The notes under the pieces: generated by a model | What the model was told of the DNA's origin: nothing | The model's database searches: none | The model's input: only the letters and a program-made list of their open reading frames with translations | Source: Clostridiales bacterium | GTDB taxonomy: Bacteria > Bacillota > Clostridia > Christensenellales > Borkfalkiaceae | Direction of reading: 5' to 3' | Assembly (NCBI GenBank): GCA_015071005.1 | Contig: SVIG01000001.1 | Location: forward strand, 1 to 64,000 | Length of the DNA stretch: 64,000 nucleotides | Shown here: piece after piece, positions 874-49,720 of the stretch | Layout: every line of letters starts with the position of its first letter | How positions within the stretch are numbered: position 1 is the stretch's first letter | Program-made: the position numbers and the translations under genes

Positions 874-2328
874 CTACAATATCCCCTTTCCGCTTAAAAA
901 TCCGTCGAATAGACCGTGCACGTCCGCGCCCGATTTTTCAAACGCACCGATCAAATGCCCCGAGTTCACCGTTTTGAAACGGTTTGTTTTATAATATTTT
1001 CGCAACGCCGCAAAAAACTTTTTATTCCCGACGCTTTTTCGTGCCGTATCAAATAACAGCACCGCCTTATCATAGCTCAAACACCGATACTCATACTCAT
1101 TGACGTACTCGGACAAATGCCGCACCATTCGCGTGTCCGTCCGACCAAGGACGCTTCCATATACGTCGTAATAGGAGCGGTACTCCTTCAACGCCGCCGT
1201 AACCTCGTCCTCGCGCTTTATCTCGTACTTTTCGTGATTTTCAAAGAAACAAATCGCCGAATACTCCGCCAAACCCTCGTCCTGCCAAGCATTTTCAATC
1301 GGGTTATTTCCCACGGCGTTTCCCCACCATTGATGCGCCGTTTCGTGCGCAACCGCACGGATTCTCGTCTTATCCTGCACGTTATCCGAAAGCATCGTCA
1401 AGCAGGGATAACTCGCCCCGTCGTAGCAAAGCCCCGTTTCTACCACCGTATAACTATCATACGGATAACCGCCGAACGTCTTTTCGTAGTACGCAAAAGT
1501 TTCTTTGACCGCGTCAAACGTTCGATTCGGCTCTTTATCCGCATAGTAGTAATAATACAGCTCCACACCACCTAAAACGGCGTGCAAAACGCGAAAGCTT
1601 TTCGAGAGCACGATCGCAAAGTCGCGCACATTCAACGCGGACATGGTGCAGACCTTTTTACTTTCCAGCACCCGCTCTTCCTGCGCTGCGCCCGTCGCGG
1701 CGACCGTGTAGTCCTTGGGCAAGGTCAACCGCACTTTATAGTCCGCAACGTCGCTATAAAAGGGATCGCCGATGGAAAAATAATTCGTTTCGTAAAAGCC
1801 ACCGCTTCCATAACCACACAAAATCGGAAAGAAATTTCCTAAATTGACCGTTTTTTGCGTAACGCCTGTACGGTGTGCGACCTTGGCGAGTTTGGTTAAA
1901 AAACTAATATCTATCACCGTCTTATCCCCAGGGTAAAGAGTTTCGAGCAAGTCCACCTGCAAAATATTCTCATCCTCGCCGACGATTTCCCAATTTTTCG
2001 AGCCGTTGACGGACGAAATGGACGTTTCTCCATAGCTTTCGCCTGCGTAGTATGCAACGTCGCGAACGGATGAAGAAATCGGAGAATAAAGTGCATTTTC
2101 GCGGTACGCGTTCGCGTAAAGCTGAAATTTTAACGTAGAAATCGCATTTTCCGTGCCATTTTGAAAAACCACCTTCGCCGTACCGGCGAGCGTGCAATTC
2201 TCAGGTGCATATTCCGCCGTAATCTCGTACCTGGTATAGGCTTTTGGTTCTTTTTTACAACCAACAAGCGGAAAAATACCCATGATCGTAAGACAAATCA
2301 AACAAAGCCGCGCGACGAATTTTTTCAT
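874..2328 (-). CDS. M1-family zinc metallopeptidase, lipoprotein
   Basis: A 484-residue protein with a lipoprotein signal: basic start, hydrophobic stretch and lipobox LVGC with the lipidated Cys at residue 24. It is therefore expected on the outer face of the membrane. The gluzincin motif HETAH is near residue 330, followed about 19 residues later by DEGLAEY, which gives the third zinc ligand Glu. A Tyr in CLSYDKA near residue 411 fits the catalytic Tyr of M1 aminopeptidases. The usual substrate-reading GxMEN motif appears only as a weaker ETGLCYDGASYP stretch, so specificity is unclear. It stands alone between the FmdB-like gene and the M23 gene and starts after GGGGGA. Confidence 0.85.
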   Translation of the reverse strand: MKKFVARLCLICLTIMGIFPLVGCKKEPKAYTRYEITAEYAPENCTLAGTAKVVFQNGTENAISTLKFQLYANAYRENALYSPISSSVRDVAYYAGESYGETSISSVNGSKNWEIVGEDENILQVDLLETLYPGDKTVIDISFLTKLAKVAHRTGVTQKTVNLGNFFPILCGYGSGGFYETNYFSIGDPFYSDVADYKVRLTLPKDYTVAATGAAQEERVLESKKVCTMSALNVRDFAIVLSKSFRVLHAVLGGVELYYYYYADKEPNRTFDAVKETFAYYEKTFGGYPYDSYTVVETGLCYDGASYPCLTMLSDNVQDKTRIRAVAHETAHQWWGNAVGNNPIENAWQDEGLAEYSAICFFENHEKYEIKREDEVTAALKEYRSYYDVYGSVLGRTDTRMVRHLSEYVNEYEYRCLSYDKAVLLFDTARKSVGNKKFFAALRKYYKTNRFKTVNSGHLIGAFEKSGADVHGLFDGFLSGKGIL

Positions 2329-32522: not shown

Positions 32523-32540
32523 GATTTTTTCCTTGTGAAT

Positions 32541-33304
32541 AACGCGTTATGCGTATATAGACCGCGTTGTGACGTCGCAAACAAAGTTTGCTTGATTTTT
32601 TGGGAGAAAGATATGTACACGGTTTGCGTGTATAGACCGCGTTGCGGTATGGCGCAAGCAGAACTTGCTTAGAGATTAGAGTTGGTATTTACACGCGGAG
32701 CGTGTATAGACCGCTGCGCGGTGTGGCGCAAGCAAAGCTTGCTTGGGGGTGGGCTGTTTTTCGCCGTTCGGCGACAACTGACGTTGAGTCTTTAAGGCGC
32801 TGCCTTAAAAATCCGCAAGAAACTCAGTTTCTTGACTTCCTATTATGGATTCTATACACGTTTTGCGTGTATAGACCGCGTTGCGGTATGGCGCAAGCGA
32901 AGCTTGCTTACAGTTTGGCTTAGTTTCGCCGTTCGGCGACAACTGACGTTGGGTCTTTAAGGCGCTGCCTTAAAAATCCGCAAGAAACTGAGTTTCTTGA
33001 CTTCCTATTATGGATTCTGTACACGTTTTGCGTGTATAGACCGCGTTGCGGTGTGGCGCAAGCAAAGCTTACTTGGGGTTGGGCTGTTTTTCGCCCTTCG
33101 GCGACAACTGACGTTGGGCCTTTAAGGCGCTGCCTTAAAAATCCGCAAGAAACTCAGTTTCTTGACTTCCTATTATGGGTTGTATACACGGTTTACGTGT
33201 ACATACCGCGTTGCGGTATGGCGCAAGCAAAGCTTGCTTAGGGTTTGGCTTTATTTGTGGGCGCTGCCCACACCCGCAAGAAACTGAGTTTCTTGACTTC
33301 CTGA
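32541..33304. repeat. tandem array of 165-bp hairpin units (family 1)
   Basis: This 764-base gap holds no gene. Three full units begin at 32690, 32855 and 33020, exactly 165 bases apart. A variant of 120 bases begins at 33185, a shortened unit of 74 at 32616 and a degenerate one at 32547. Each full unit is a string of small palindromes: ACACG-CGTGT, CCGC-GCGG, GCAAGC-GCTTGC, CGCCG-CGGCG, CAAC-GTTG, TTTAAGGC-GCCTTAAA and CAAGAAACT-AGTTTCTTG. Loops vary more than stems. The variant unit swaps three modules for GTGGGC-GCT-GCCCAC. The array ends at the trmD stop codon. Confidence 0.95.
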
Positions 33305-33305
33305 C

Positions 33306-35002: not shown

Positions 35003-35227
35003 AGTGAATTATGACGGCTTTGCCGTCGTGAATTGCGTTGCTATGCAACGCGTGAATTTTCGCTTCGCGTTCGTGAATTGCATTACTACGTAATGCGTTG
35101 CGGAATATTTTATATATATTTCAATAATGAATTGCTTTCCGCGAAAACAATTCAATTCACGCGCTGTCAGGCGCAATTCACGCCGACTCCGTCGGTAATT
35201 CACGTTTTCGTTAGAAAACAATTCACT
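35003..35227. repeat. hairpin-array element, family 2, copy A
   Basis: A 225-base element filling the smc-ftsY gap, bounded by AGTGAATT and AATTCACT. Left part: stem-loops (ACGGC-GCCGT, GCGTTGC-GCAACGC, CGC-GCG, GCATTAC-GTAATGC) separated by GTGAATT. Core: an AT-rich stretch of about 30 bases, then AATTGCTTT...CGAAAACAATT. Right part: GCGCT-GGCGC, CCGAC-GTCGG and GTTTTC-GAAAAC hairpins separated by AATTCAC. Confidence 0.93.
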
Positions 35228-44140: not shown

Positions 44141-44358
44141 AGTGAATTGCGTTGCTTTGCAACGCGTGAATTGGCTTCGCCGTGAATTGAACGCTCCGCG
44201 TTCATGAATTGCGTTGCTTTACAACGCATTGTGGAAATATTTATATATTTTTCAATAACGAATTGCTTTTAACGAAAGCAATTCAATGCGCGCAAGGCTT
44301 TGTCTTGCAATTCGCGCGCCTACGGCGCAATTCATATTTCGTTAGAAAACAATTCACT
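44141..44358. repeat. hairpin-array element, family 2, copy B
   Basis: A 218-base element in the recF-PHP gap, same orientation as the copy at 35003. It starts AGTGAATTGCGTTGC and ends GAAAACAATTCACT. Left stems: GCGTTGC-GCAACGC, GGC-GCC, GAACGC-GCGTTC and GCGTTG-CAACGC. The core has ATTGTGGAAATATTTATA and AATTGCTTT...GAAAGCAATT. Right: GCAAG-CTTGC, GCGCC-GGCGC, and the terminal hairpin. Confidence 0.93.
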
Positions 44359-44366
44359 TGCAAGGC

Positions 44367-45455
44367 TCAGCCTTGCTTAGCCTTACCGTTTTCGATGCGG
44401 ATTTTCTTACACTCCGCCCCATACAGCACTCTTTCCGTGTGTGTACACGTCAAAATCGTCTGCAACTCCGCAATACATTGCACGAGCTTCTTTCTTCTCT
44501 TCAAGTCCAGCTCGCTCATGACGTCGTCTAAGACCAAAATCGGGTATTCCCCCGAAAGACTCTTAAAAATTTGTACTTCCGCAAGTTTCAAGGCAAGTGC
44601 CGCCGTCCGAGTCTGTCCCTGCGAAGCATACGCTTTTGCGTCAATGCCGCCGATTGTCACGTCCAAATCGTCGCGGTGCGGTCCAACCGTCGTAAAGCCC
44701 AAGCGCAAATCCTTTTCATAGTTATTTTCCAAGCGCCGAAGCAAGGTCTTGGCGATTTCCGTCTCGTCCCCCTCGTACTTTTTGTCCGGCTTGATGAGCA
44801 ATTCTTCCCTGCCGTCCGTTAAAAATGCGTGGTATTCCTTGGCATAAGGCGCGAGCTTTTCCAAAAACTCCGCGCGTTTTTTCACAATCACCGCCGCGTA
44901 CTTACAAAGCTGCTCGTCCCACACGGGTAACGTATCCAAAATCAAGGACGAATCGTGGTTTTTCAAAAGGGTGTTTCGCTGATCTAATATCTTATTATAG
45001 CGCAAAAGCGCGGTATAATACGCAGGCGAGGTTTGCGAAATGGAAATATTCATAAACCGACGTCTTTCGTCCGGTCCGTCTTGAATGAGCCGCAATTCCC
45101 CCGGCGAGAAAAATACGCTATTGATATGCCCCATCAAGTCCGCATTCTTGGCGATTTTACTGCCGTTGACACGGATTTCCCGCTTATTTTCAAAAATCAA
45201 AGCTTCAATGGTGACTTTCCCGTAGCGATTCACCGCTTCGGCGGTGATTTTGGCGTGGTCCGCACCGATACGGATGAGCTGCTTATCGTGGCGGATACGG
45301 AGCGAAGCGCCCGTACATAAATAGAAAACGGCTTCGGCGCAGTTGGTTTTCCCCTGCGCATTCTTCCCAAACAGGACGTTTAACCCGTCGGAAAATTCGA
45401 AAACTTCGTTTTCGTAATTTCTAAAATTTTGAAGGAATAATTTTTTTATTTGCAT
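44367..45455 (-). CDS. recF: DNA repair protein RecF
   Basis: A 362-residue SMC-like ATPase. The N-terminus KKLFLQNFRNYENEVFEF and Walker A GKNAQGKT are typical; signature YASQGQTRTAALALKLAE and Walker B PILVLDDVMSELD near the end. It loads RecA at gaps. It is divergent from dnaA, with a consensus promoter between them, and dnaN and gyrB are absent. The last codons overlap a GCAAGGCT-AGCCTTGC hairpin at the edge of the repeat. Confidence 0.96.
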   Translation of the reverse strand: MQIKKLFLQNFRNYENEVFEFSDGLNVLFGKNAQGKTNCAEAVFYLCTGASLRIRHDKQLIRIGADHAKITAEAVNRYGKVTIEALIFENKREIRVNGSKIAKNADLMGHINSVFFSPGELRLIQDGPDERRRFMNISISQTSPAYYTALLRYNKILDQRNTLLKNHDSSLILDTLPVWDEQLCKYAAVIVKKRAEFLEKLAPYAKEYHAFLTDGREELLIKPDKKYEGDETEIAKTLLRRLENNYEKDLRLGFTTVGPHRDDLDVTIGGIDAKAYASQGQTRTAALALKLAEVQIFKSLSGEYPILVLDDVMSELDLKRRKKLVQCIAELQTILTCTHTERVLYGAECKKIRIENGKAKQG

Positions 45456-45478
45456 AATCCTTAAAAAACCCGCCGAAA

Positions 45479-45508
45479 TTGCTTTCTTTTCCTCGAAATT
45501 TGTATTAT
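45479..45508 (+). promoter_or_regulatory. probable promoter of dnaA
   Basis: TTGCTT (45479-45484), 18 bases, TATTAT (45503-45508). No DnaA-box cluster (TTATNCACA) is visible in this 121-base gap. Confidence 0.5.
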
Positions 45509-45509
45509 A

Positions 45510-45538
45510 ATTATATCAAATAATTCACCAAAAGACAA
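45510..45538 (-). promoter_or_regulatory. sigma-A promoter of recF
   Basis: Minus strand: TTGTCT (45533-45538), 17 bases, TATAAT (45510-45515). Confidence 0.7.
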
Positions 45539-45542
45539 GTAG

Positions 45543-45570
45543 TTAGGAAAATTAATTTCCTAAAGGGGGT
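45543..45570 (+). promoter_or_regulatory. hairpin abutting the dnaA Shine-Dalgarno site
   Basis: TTAGGAAA-ATTAA-TTTCCTAA (45543-45563), directly followed by the SD AGGGGGT and the start codon 6 bases later. It may limit ribosome access or act as an operator. Confidence 0.5.
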
Positions 45571-45576
45571 AAATTT

Positions 45577-46911
45577 ATGGCTGAAAACGCCCAACTTCAA
45601 TTCTTGTGGAAGCAAATTAGTGAACGCGCGGAGAAAATTATCAATCCCGTGTCCTTTAATCACTTGATCAAGGATCTTGAACCCGTCGATTTGATGGGAC
45701 GAAAAATCGTCTTGAAATGCTCGTCCGATATCAATGCGAACAGCATTATGAAAAAGTTTTCCGATAAACTCAAGGACGCCATCGTAAAATGCGACATCGG
45801 TCTTTCCGACTTCCGTTTGGTCGTAGACGGAAGCGACGTTTTCACGCCCGATTTTGAAGAGGACGCGGCGGAAACTTTCCGCGTTTCCCCGATCAATAAG
45901 ACGTTCACCTTCGATTCGTTCGTTGCAGGCTCGGGCAGTAAGTTTGGCTACGCGGCGGCAAAAGCAGTCGCGGAAAACCCCGGCGAAACCTTCAACCCCC
46001 TGTTTATCTATGGGGAATCGGGTTTGGGGAAAACCCATCTTATGCACGCGATTGCGAACTATATCTCGCAAAACCACCCCGATAAAAAGGTGCTTTACAC
46101 GACAAGCGAGAACTTTTTGAACGATCTCATCGACTCGATTGCACAAAAGAACGGCGCGAAATTCCGCTACCACTACCGCAACGTGGACGTTTTGATGATC
46201 GACGATATCCAGTTCTTGAAAGGTAGAACGCAGCTCCAAGAAGAGTTTTTCCACACTTTCAACGAGCTTTCCTCGCAAAATAAGCAAATCGTTTTGACGT
46301 CCGACCGTCCCCCGAAGGAAATCGCGACCCTCGAAGAGCGTCTTCGTACCCGTTTTGAAGGGGGTATGATCGTCGACATTCAACCGCCCGACACCGAAAC
46401 GAAGATTGCGATCTTGAAACGCAAAGCGCTCGATAGAAAGTGCCCCGTTTCCGACGAAGTGTTGGAATTCTTGGCGCGCGACTCTGGTCACGACGTAAGA
46501 ATGCTCGAAGGCAGACTTACAAAAGTCATCTTTGCCAGCAAACTCCACGAAGAAGCGATTACTTTGGAGCTTGCAAGAAAGGCGCTCAACGAATCGGTCA
46601 GCGAAGAAGAATCGCAAGAAGACGTCACGCCCGAAAAGATTCTTTCGGCGGTTTGCTCCTATTTCAAGCATAGAAAGGACGATTTGATCGGCAAAGGCAA
46701 GAAAGCGGAGCTTGTAAAAGCGCGCCAAATTTGTGCGTATCTTATGTGCGACATGCTGTCTATGCCCCTCGTTGCCGTTGGGAATATGCTCGGCGGCCGC
46801 GACCATACGACAATTATGTACGCACGCGATAAGATGGAAAAGCTCGCAAAGCTTAACGACCGTATCGCCAAGGAAATCGACGATATTAAGAACATTGTAT
46901 TGAAGAAGTAA
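45577..46911 (+). CDS. dnaA: chromosomal replication initiator DnaA
   Basis: A 444-residue initiator. Domain I is residues ~1-75; domain II is short. Domain III is AAA+ with Walker A YGESGLGKTHLMHAI, Walker B VLMIDDIQFL and sensor residues in LEERLRTRFEGG. Domain IV ends with the DnaA signature GGRDHTTIMYARDKM. It opens oriC and regulates initiation. It is on the plus strand, divergent from recF, with mnmG downstream. No dnaN follows. Confidence 0.98.
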   Translation: MAENAQLQFLWKQISERAEKIINPVSFNHLIKDLEPVDLMGRKIVLKCSSDINANSIMKKFSDKLKDAIVKCDIGLSDFRLVVDGSDVFTPDFEEDAAETFRVSPINKTFTFDSFVAGSGSKFGYAAAKAVAENPGETFNPLFIYGESGLGKTHLMHAIANYISQNHPDKKVLYTTSENFLNDLIDSIAQKNGAKFRYHYRNVDVLMIDDIQFLKGRTQLQEEFFHTFNELSSQNKQIVLTSDRPPKEIATLEERLRTRFEGGMIVDIQPPDTETKIAILKRKALDRKCPVSDEVLEFLARDSGHDVRMLEGRLTKVIFASKLHEEAITLELARKALNESVSEEESQEDVTPEKILSAVCSYFKHRKDDLIGKGKKAELVKARQICAYLMCDMLSMPLVAVGNMLGGRDHTTIMYARDKMEKLAKLNDRIAKEIDDIKNIVLKK

Positions 46912-46919
46912 GGCTTAAA

Positions 46920-47143
46920 AGTGAATTGTTTTCTAACGAAAACGTGAATCGAAGACCAAAGGCTTTCGTGAATTGCGCCTGACGGCGCGTGAATTGAATT
47001 GCTTTCGCTGAAAACAATTCGTTATTGAAAGATATATAAATAATTCCACAACGCATTGCGTAGCAATGCAATTCACGAATGCAAAGCGTTCAATTCACTG
47101 AGCGAAGCGAAAATTCATGCGTTGCAAAGCAACGCAATTCACT
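46920..47143. repeat. hairpin-array element, family 2, copy C (inverted)
   Basis: A 224-base element in the dnaA-mnmG gap, in the opposite orientation to the copies at 35003 and 44141. It starts AGTGAATTGTTTTCTAACG and ends GCAACGCAATTCACT. All parts of the family are present: terminal GTTTTC hairpin, GCGCC-GGCGC, the AATTGCTTT core stem, AT-rich core, GCATTGC-GCAATGC, GAAYGC-GCRTTC and GCGTTGC-GCAACGC. The 289-base gap holds no gene. Confidence 0.93.
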
Positions 47144-49105: not shown

Positions 49106-49262
49106 TGGGAAGTCAAGAAACTCAGTTTCTTGCGGATTTTTAAGGCAGCGCCTTAAAGCCCCAACGTCAGTTGTCGCTGATAGGCGAAACCATACCCAAC
49201 AAAAGCAAGCTTCGCTTGCGCCACACTCCCTCGAGGTCTATACACGCAAAGCGTGTACAAAC
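49106..49262. repeat. inverted single copy of the family 1 hairpin unit
   Basis: Read on the minus strand this segment matches the 165-bp unit at 32690-33184 through all modules in order, from TACACG-CGTGTATAGACC to CAAGAAACT-AGTTTCTTGACTTCC. Two modules differ: CCGC-GCGG is replaced by the palindrome CCTCGAGG, and CGCCG-CGGCG is degraded. It fills the gap after mnmG. Confidence 0.92.
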
Positions 49263-49574: not shown

Positions 49575-49663
49575 AATCTATTTGCTAATTGGACGGTTTT
49601 CTTCCTTTATCATCAAAAAGCAATGTCCGTTCTTGCTAAATGGTGAAACTATCACCCGAGCCA

Positions 49664-49720
49664 GTAAGCTTCGCTTGCGCAAGCTCGTCCCGCAGTCTAT
49701 ACACGCAAAGCGTGTACAAC
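49664..49720. repeat. fragment of the family 1 hairpin unit
   Basis: In minus orientation: TACACGCTTTGCGTGTATAG, a changed central module, then GCAAGCGAAGCTTAC. These are modules 1 and 3 of the family 1 unit; the rest is missing. The surrounding 49575-49772 shows no gene. Confidence 0.8.

Follow-up and report, generated by a model that had tools for sequence, protein, structure and literature searches.

MITEs are small, apparently noncoding elements with inverted ends that are found as many dispersed copies with unrelated flanks, and fungal mitochondria harbor double-hairpin elements, mobile hairpins whose stems vary under a conserved layout. In the GTAG/CGTC-type REPs and BIMEs, as portrayed in sections of Di Nocera et al. 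(2013; PMC3733652), a short tag accompanies a palindromic stem-loop, the units form inverted dimers, the repeats are intergenic and look mobile, different stems occur within one genome, and GT pairing is often observed. Gut-1 is typed by Rfam (RF01706) as an sRNA, a single arm of 77 bases whose consensus consists of three hairpins with GUGAAAU separators; sections of Weinberg et al. (2010; PMC2864571) note it as a noncoding RNA of the human gut only.

The element described here measures ∼220 bases and has two inverted arms, composed of modules of a 7-base tag plus a short hairpin, which flank an AT-rich core. It shares with MITEs the features listed above, in that its ends are inverted repeats and its copies lie scattered among unrelated flanks, and with the mitochondrial elements the varying stems and the constant layout, although the latter reside in a eukaryotic organelle and consist of two hairpins without constant tags or a two-armed plan. 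Compared to REPs and BIMEs, the tag has 7 bases and a different sequence (GTGAATT or a variant; neither GTAG nor CGTC was found beside a hairpin), and each element carries about eight different hairpins in two arms around a core.

The first copy in our window, the 64,000-nucleotide stretch of clostridial DNA that was analyzed, occupies 35003..35227 (plus strand) between smc and ftsY, neighbors identified by Pfam. Read directly, its first bases are AGTGAATT at 35003 and its last bases AATTCACT at 35227. The initial annotation, made from the letters alone, had claimed hairpin arrays with a constant spacer, mirror-arranged about an AT-rich core, with GTGAATT to the left and AATTCAC to the right, and this is what we see. 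The left arm (35004..35079, plus strand) contains four GTGAATT tags (35004-35010, 35028-35034, 35052-35058, and 35073-35079) with hairpin modules between them at 35011-35027, 35035-35051, and 35059-35072, and the right arm (35154..35226, plus strand) contains four AATTCAC tags (35154-35160, 35175-35181, 35197-35203, and 35220-35226) with hairpins between them at 35161-35174, 35182-35196, and 35204-35219. Between the arms lie, all on the plus strand, a core-proximal hairpin, GCATTAC TAC GTAATGC (35080..35096), in a slot that covaries across 21 copies from the same genome; the AT-rich core (35097..35128), bordered in many other copies by GTTNNGG...CCNNAAC; and the core hairpin GAATTGCTTT...AAAACAATTC (35129..35153), likewise seen on direct reading and corresponding to the core stem of the initial annotation. 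That the segments between tags are palindromic holds in general but not for the third slot of copy 1 (35059-35072, TTCGCTTCGCGTTC), an imperfect palindrome which resembles a recurring nonpalindromic module, TTCGCTNNCGCTCA, of several relatives. This module (also in the form CTCGC...GCTCC) fills hairpin slots though it is nearer to mirror-symmetric than to palindromic; besides window positions 35059-35072, it was found at loci L040, L041, L059, L079, and L146.

As annotated initially, there are two further copies in the window, at 44141..44358 (plus strand), flanked by a gene with a PHP domain and a recF-like gene, and at 46920..47143 (minus strand), between dnaA and mnmG/gidA; all three are intergenic. 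In the vicinity of copy 3, which follows directly after dnaA, the recF-like gene and dnaA are divergent (45455-46927) and separated by an AT-rich, partly palindromic gap. The GC skew is about zero at 44 to 49 kb, and thus a replication origin may be close. The window also contains a different repeat array (32540-33305) with a spacing of ∼165 bases, comprising three 237-nt copies that are 87 to 90% alike and carrying TACACG...CGTGTATAGA and CAAGAAACTSAGTTTCTTG palindromes. This array is possibly family 1 of the initial annotation, and palindromes resembling these are seen again at 49114-49132, 49162-49260, and 49621-49719.

The tag is more frequent than composition predicts. The window contains 27 GTGAATT versus 11.2 expected, a count reached by none of 100 shuffles, and the pattern GTGAATT-N6-30-GTGAATT occurs 111 times (56 forward, 55 reverse) in the whole genome (G000; 1.69 Mb in 12 contigs, 93.9% complete), compared to 0 and 0 for a reversed-pattern control. 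This genome holds ∼23 copies, i.e., the 3 of the window plus 20 at loci L031-L050, and one remnant (L051). Several copies are truncated, but all those read keep the spacer pattern; copies lacking it had been named initially as an observation that would speak against such a family. A de novo detector, which is supplied with no tag and asks for the same 7-mer at least three times with hairpins in between, found 2 arrays in the real window and none after dinucleotide shuffling of the window (640 kb in total). In the fetched loci, it reported 154 arrays with at least three tags, 152 of which carry a tag that fits RYKANNT or the complement of this pattern (137 distinct array sequences); as these loci were mostly fetched by tag- or model-based searches, the figure says that nothing else scores rather than how frequent the element is.

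Individual hairpins are close to flawless. Among 586 scored hairpins, 558 are perfect, under a scoring filter that favors good stems; the loop has 3 bases in 372 and 4 bases in 184, and a C-G pair closes it in 497. Their sequences vary widely, with 396 distinct ones among 591. The idea of a CRISPR-like array could be discarded on these grounds: in CRISPR, constant repeats separate variable, nonpalindromic spacers, whereas here the variable parts are palindromic and the array changes its orientation at the core, the very opposite layout that the initial annotation had described, with constant separators and varying palindromes.

Under stricter filters, R1, a covariance model derived from the 88-base core in 21 own-genome copies, matched 23 of the 57 genomes that represent the genus, one of them G000. 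Other species retain the plan and the core with different hairpins. The tag itself varies among lineages, being GTGAATT, GTGAAAT, GTGATAT, GTGAAGT, GTTATAT, ATGAAAT, or GCGATAT; in one element of genome G032 (L056), for example, four GCGATAT face four ATATCGC. The repeat family is distributed across an order of gut Clostridia. Named relatives picked up through an SMC fragment (31 loci, 65 to 74% identity) are uncultured Clostridia, and the sources stated are the guts of sheep, roe deer, and water deer.

Tags change in concert on the two arms. In 66 of 86 two-armed elements, the tags of both arms are identical, and the remaining 20 differ by one base, such that 86/86 agree to within one base; shuffled arm pairings gave a mean of 43 identical (maximum 55) and a mean of 68 within one base (maximum 79 of 86), a comparison which yields no strict probability since related elements share genomes. 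Without duplicate elements, the figures are 63/82 identical and 82/82 within one base. Nine of the 20 mismatched elements belong to a GTGATAT/GTTATAT class in which the one-base mismatch is consistent, and G032 has elements whose two arms carry different tags, GTGAAAT and GTGAATT. One-armed arrays occur as well, e.g., in G568. We therefore rejected a strict left-right pairing of tags. Four plus four tags is the commonest layout (24/54 parsed rows, four genomes), as counted by a parser that drops arms where a tag mismatches for the second time or a mirror-type module occurs.

How does this family relate to Gut-1? The element has the three hairpins and the GUGAAAU-type spacer of that family, with GTGAATT in the place of the spacer, and in both the hairpins are free in sequence. 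None of the window copies reaches the Rfam gathering score of 50 bits: the right arm of copy 1 scores 29.1 bits on the minus strand and copy 3 scores 29.4 bits (46919-47000, plus strand), while copy 2 has no match at E ≤ 1. Scanning 15 of the 20 loci L031-L050 gave three matches, the best of 25.1 bits and thus below the cutoff of 50, and G000 had no match at E ≤ 0.001. Across the taxonomic family, Gut-1 was detected at E ≤ 0.001 in 91/301 genomes and 14/18 genera (48 above cutoff), and across the order in 74/297 genomes and 41/125 genera (46 above cutoff); of 14 control genomes for both surveys, one (Escherichia coli) matched, below cutoff.

To connect the two models, 11 chosen loci were run through both R1 (E ≤ 0.1) and cmscan. 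In 8 of the 11 (L137, L334, L336, L338 with two elements, L340, L115, L132, and L376), a window-type core matches R1 next to a Gut-1 match at or above gathering, the R1 match being weak in L132 (24.9 bits) and L376 (21.2 bits). Two loci (L056 and L339) matched R1 alone, and L367 matched Gut-1 alone. An example is L115, where facing Gut-1 matches at 1501-1582 (plus) and 1637-1718 (minus) surround an R1 core at 1571-1648. From these adjoining matches, we conclude that Gut-1 is one arm of a larger, two-armed element which behaves like mobile DNA. The family differs from the element described here in being a single 77-base sRNA arm; the latter usually has two inverted arms and a core, is dispersed, and contains few G·U pairs. 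A known MITE or small RNA family with the same ends and spacers had been considered initially as a finding that would undermine the reading of this locus. Gut-1 does have a near-identical spacer, but as one arm only it supplies a name and leaves the architecture unexplained. Conversely, an orphan family gains the context of a whole element and a likely different nature, that of mobile DNA instead of an sRNA. In searches of an open-license library, we found no account of the two-armed element.

If Gut-1 is one arm, could the whole still function at the RNA level? The tandem hairpins might be transcribed, with the tag binding a protein, or might stabilize or terminate transcripts. The typing of RF01706 as an sRNA and the description of Gut-1 as a noncoding RNA in the parts of Weinberg et al. 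cited above (PMC2864571) agree with such a role, as does the scarcity of elements in divergent gaps. By crude gene calls, 53 elements had enough flanking sequence, 12 of which were set aside for a long open reading frame running in; the others lie in 23 codirectional, 13 convergent, and 5 divergent gaps compared to 75, 29, and 40 other gaps (i.e., 5/41 elements versus 40/144 other gaps in divergent context). Moreover, the stems covary, and the sequence folds far better than shuffles as RNA. Base pairing, on the other hand, tells against it. With the stem requirement dropped, we evaluated 605 segments with 3109 pairs, 51 segments that were less than half paired being set aside (these include the mirror-type module as well as spurious matches in viral loci). 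On the tag strand, the pairs comprised 13 of the G·T/T·G type, 28 of the A·C/C·A type, and 59 of the T·C/C·T type; the recurring TTCGCTNNCGCTCA module would yield pairs of the T·C/C·T type.

Structured RNAs are normally rich in G·U pairs. Five tRNAs used as a control showed 4 G·T and no A·C in 35 pairs, too few to rely on. In the element, G·T is no commoner than A·C, and its rarity (13/3109) fits DNA better than an sRNA. This scarcity favors a function as DNA and is compatible with transcription; it also sets the element apart from REPs, in which GT pairing is often seen. In addition, the arms of two-armed elements are oppositely oriented, the copies are scattered and patchily distributed, and both strands are equivalent because the palindromes are perfect. 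Taken together, we consider a function as a small RNA or mRNA element unlikely.

Palindromes of this family stay perfect while their sequence changes. This can be seen in genome G013, where 14 of 17 parsed elements could be aligned (L077, L313, and L317 were omitted, their hairpin order being different). Both sides had changed in 8 of 85 pairs (15 cells), which none of 500 shuffles achieved, and sliding the partners against each other abolished the pairing. Change was mostly confined to hairpins; the four rungs, as we call the potential pairings between the tags of one arm and those of the other, were nearly invariant, with one compensated cell. The core-proximal slot in the genome of the window displayed both-sided changes as in G013. 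Such changes could result from compensatory selection or from template-switch correction of palindromes.

The latter mechanism would also suit a different reading, in which the tags are clustered sites for a DNA-binding protein, such as a chromosome-organizing or replication factor, and the hairpins are neutral filler that template-switch correction keeps palindromic. The constancy of tags within an arm alongside varying hairpins is as expected from this reading, and so are the both-sided palindrome changes with few intermediates; one protein binding both arms would likewise produce the co-changing tags. The tag-to-tag gap, however, ranges from 9 to 22 bases, which does not place the tags on one helical face, and the tags recur jointly with the core and the hairpins beside it. 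Furthermore, loops read along the tag strand of either arm begin more often with T, which makes the modules directional, and together with the C-G closing pair this indicates that hairpins are not mere filler. We regard the binding-site reading as decidedly improbable.

The preferred reading, a DNA element recognized by its fold, rests in part on structure prediction. The window element folds better than shuffles with a z score of −7.0 as DNA and −7.5 as RNA, and L035 reaches −9.95 as DNA. In the predicted minimum-energy DNA fold of the window element, the four rungs form with 7, 7, 7, and 6 of 7 pairs, compared to the outer rung alone when folded as RNA. Among the 24 elements with 4+4 tags, folded with unaltered sequence and counting a rung as present at 5 or more of 7 pairs, all four rungs appeared in the minimum-energy structures of 17 as DNA and 16 as RNA, the full ladder being absent from 7 and 8, respectively. 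As tag and hairpin abut, a full rung plus two hairpins makes a four-way junction without unpaired bases. The structure predicted for a single strand of the element is a ladder of four-way junctions. Given the one-base arm mismatches (20/86) and the one-armed arrays, rung pairing cannot be a universal requirement.

Several observations suggest that these elements move. Among 171 same-genome pairs that are at least 80% alike, both 50-base flanks have an identity of ≤0.60 in 114, where random flanks (200 pairs) gave a mean of 0.54 and a maximum of 0.66; L307 and L308, for instance, are 96% alike with flank identity at the random level. In most pairs, the likeness ends at the element ends, whereas some pairs share one flank, and the two copies of L305 have both flanks in common, suggestive of a duplication. 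The ftsY-smc flanks were matched in 57/57 genomes, and among 30 junctions fetched, a full element was present in two (G000 and G032, with hairpins mostly different between them), one arm in G017, and one GTGAAGT arm in G039; the detector reported none in the other 26. The unlike flanks and this one patchy site suggest insertion. Between genera, arm-bearing stretches are 93 to 100% identical in several of the listed pairs (100% over 163 bases in L126/L130) and 80 to 90% in most others, which could in part stem from contamination or binning errors in metagenome-assembled genomes.

The initial annotation had likened the ends to those of a MITE and suggested looking for target-site duplications and a helper transposase. 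Over 79 elements (L309 and L313 entered twice) and with 200 right-flank shuffles, we found no target-site duplication; the highest z score, 2.7, rested on one element. The first base outward of the element is T in 68% of 158 ends. Near-identical copies thus occupy unrelated sites without target-site duplication. For a helper, Y1_Tnp had no match in G000, and no helper with matching ends was identified; a Y2_Tnp search matched 0/57 genomes of the genus, but no control matched either. The suspicion of a MITE is therefore borne out by dispersed copies, inverted ends, and likeness that in most pairs stops at the ends; neither a target-site duplication nor, in the Y1_Tnp and Y2_Tnp searches, a helper was found, which is why we call the element MITE-like.

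Descent from REPs or BIMEs moved by an IS200/IS605-type HUH transposase (RAYT), with GTGAATT in the role of the GTAG tag, would account for the short tag plus hairpin, the inverted arrangement, the intergenic location, and the lack of target-site duplication. Yet the genome with ∼23 copies has no Y1_Tnp match, and the distributions differ: Y1_Tnp matches were obtained in 21/57 genus genomes and R1 matches in 23/57, with elements but no Y1 match in G000 and G015. Given that the G000 assembly is 93.9% complete, a Y1 gene may have been missed there. On this evidence, we judge such a descent to be very unlikely. An origin from phages or plasmids was rejected, as a blastn search with copy 1 matched none of 50,697 phage and 72,556 plasmid records. 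In viral contigs, the strict pattern had 0 matches, and a loose one hit at least 120 stretches that look chance-like, with one match each among the 80 listed except for two with two.

On balance, then, we lean toward a nonautonomous, REP/MITE-like mobile palindromic DNA element that is recognized by its fold. Its unit is the directional module of a 7-base tag and a short perfect hairpin, mostly with a loop of 3 to 4 bases, and two arms of such modules oppose each other around the AT-rich core. In the single-stranded state, the tags of one arm may pair with those of the other to give the four-rung ladder of four-way junctions, and a trans-acting enzyme would recognize this fold, not the hairpin sequence, when copying or moving the element, leaving hairpins free to change provided they remain self-complementary. 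The element would act as DNA rather than as a small RNA and be largely selfish, coming to lie in the gaps between genes and at times next to transcription terminators, those of tRNA genes among them. More tentatively, it might represent a class of mobile elements defined by shape, in which a strand forms four stacked, perfect four-way junctions with hairpins as side arms and tags as rungs, is recognized by a junction- or hairpin-specific enzyme, and has Gut-1 as one half. The family shows, in an order of gut Clostridia, a repeat whose sequence is free while its shape is kept. Should the ladder fold be real, it would constitute a natural multijunction DNA structure and a clean system for studying how palindromes diversify with their perfection kept and how enzymes recognize folds.

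As for the surroundings of the elements, a second repeat, CCGCTTGCCGTCCGAGATTCTTCG or similar, directly abuts several element ends (L305, L309, L316, and L381-L389, all in G013). Nine places of this repeat were inspected for an empty site, and no clean one was found: five lie beside an element (L382, L383, L384, L386, and L387), another two adjoin a collapsed remnant (L381 and L389), L385 lies near an R1 match, and L388 has no element and looks unrelated. There is a weak preference for the proximity of terminators (10/158 ends versus 32/5212 random and 141/7366 AT-rich positions). One own-genome copy lies beside a T-box leader (L038:182-408, minus strand, 93.9 bits). Lastly, 12 of 49 array loci fetched through Gut-1 (L112, L113, L117, L118, L356, L360, L367, L370, L374, L376, L379, and L380) are within 200 bases of a tRNA gene, all 12 on its 3′ side, and the tRNAs are of several kinds and from several families of the order.
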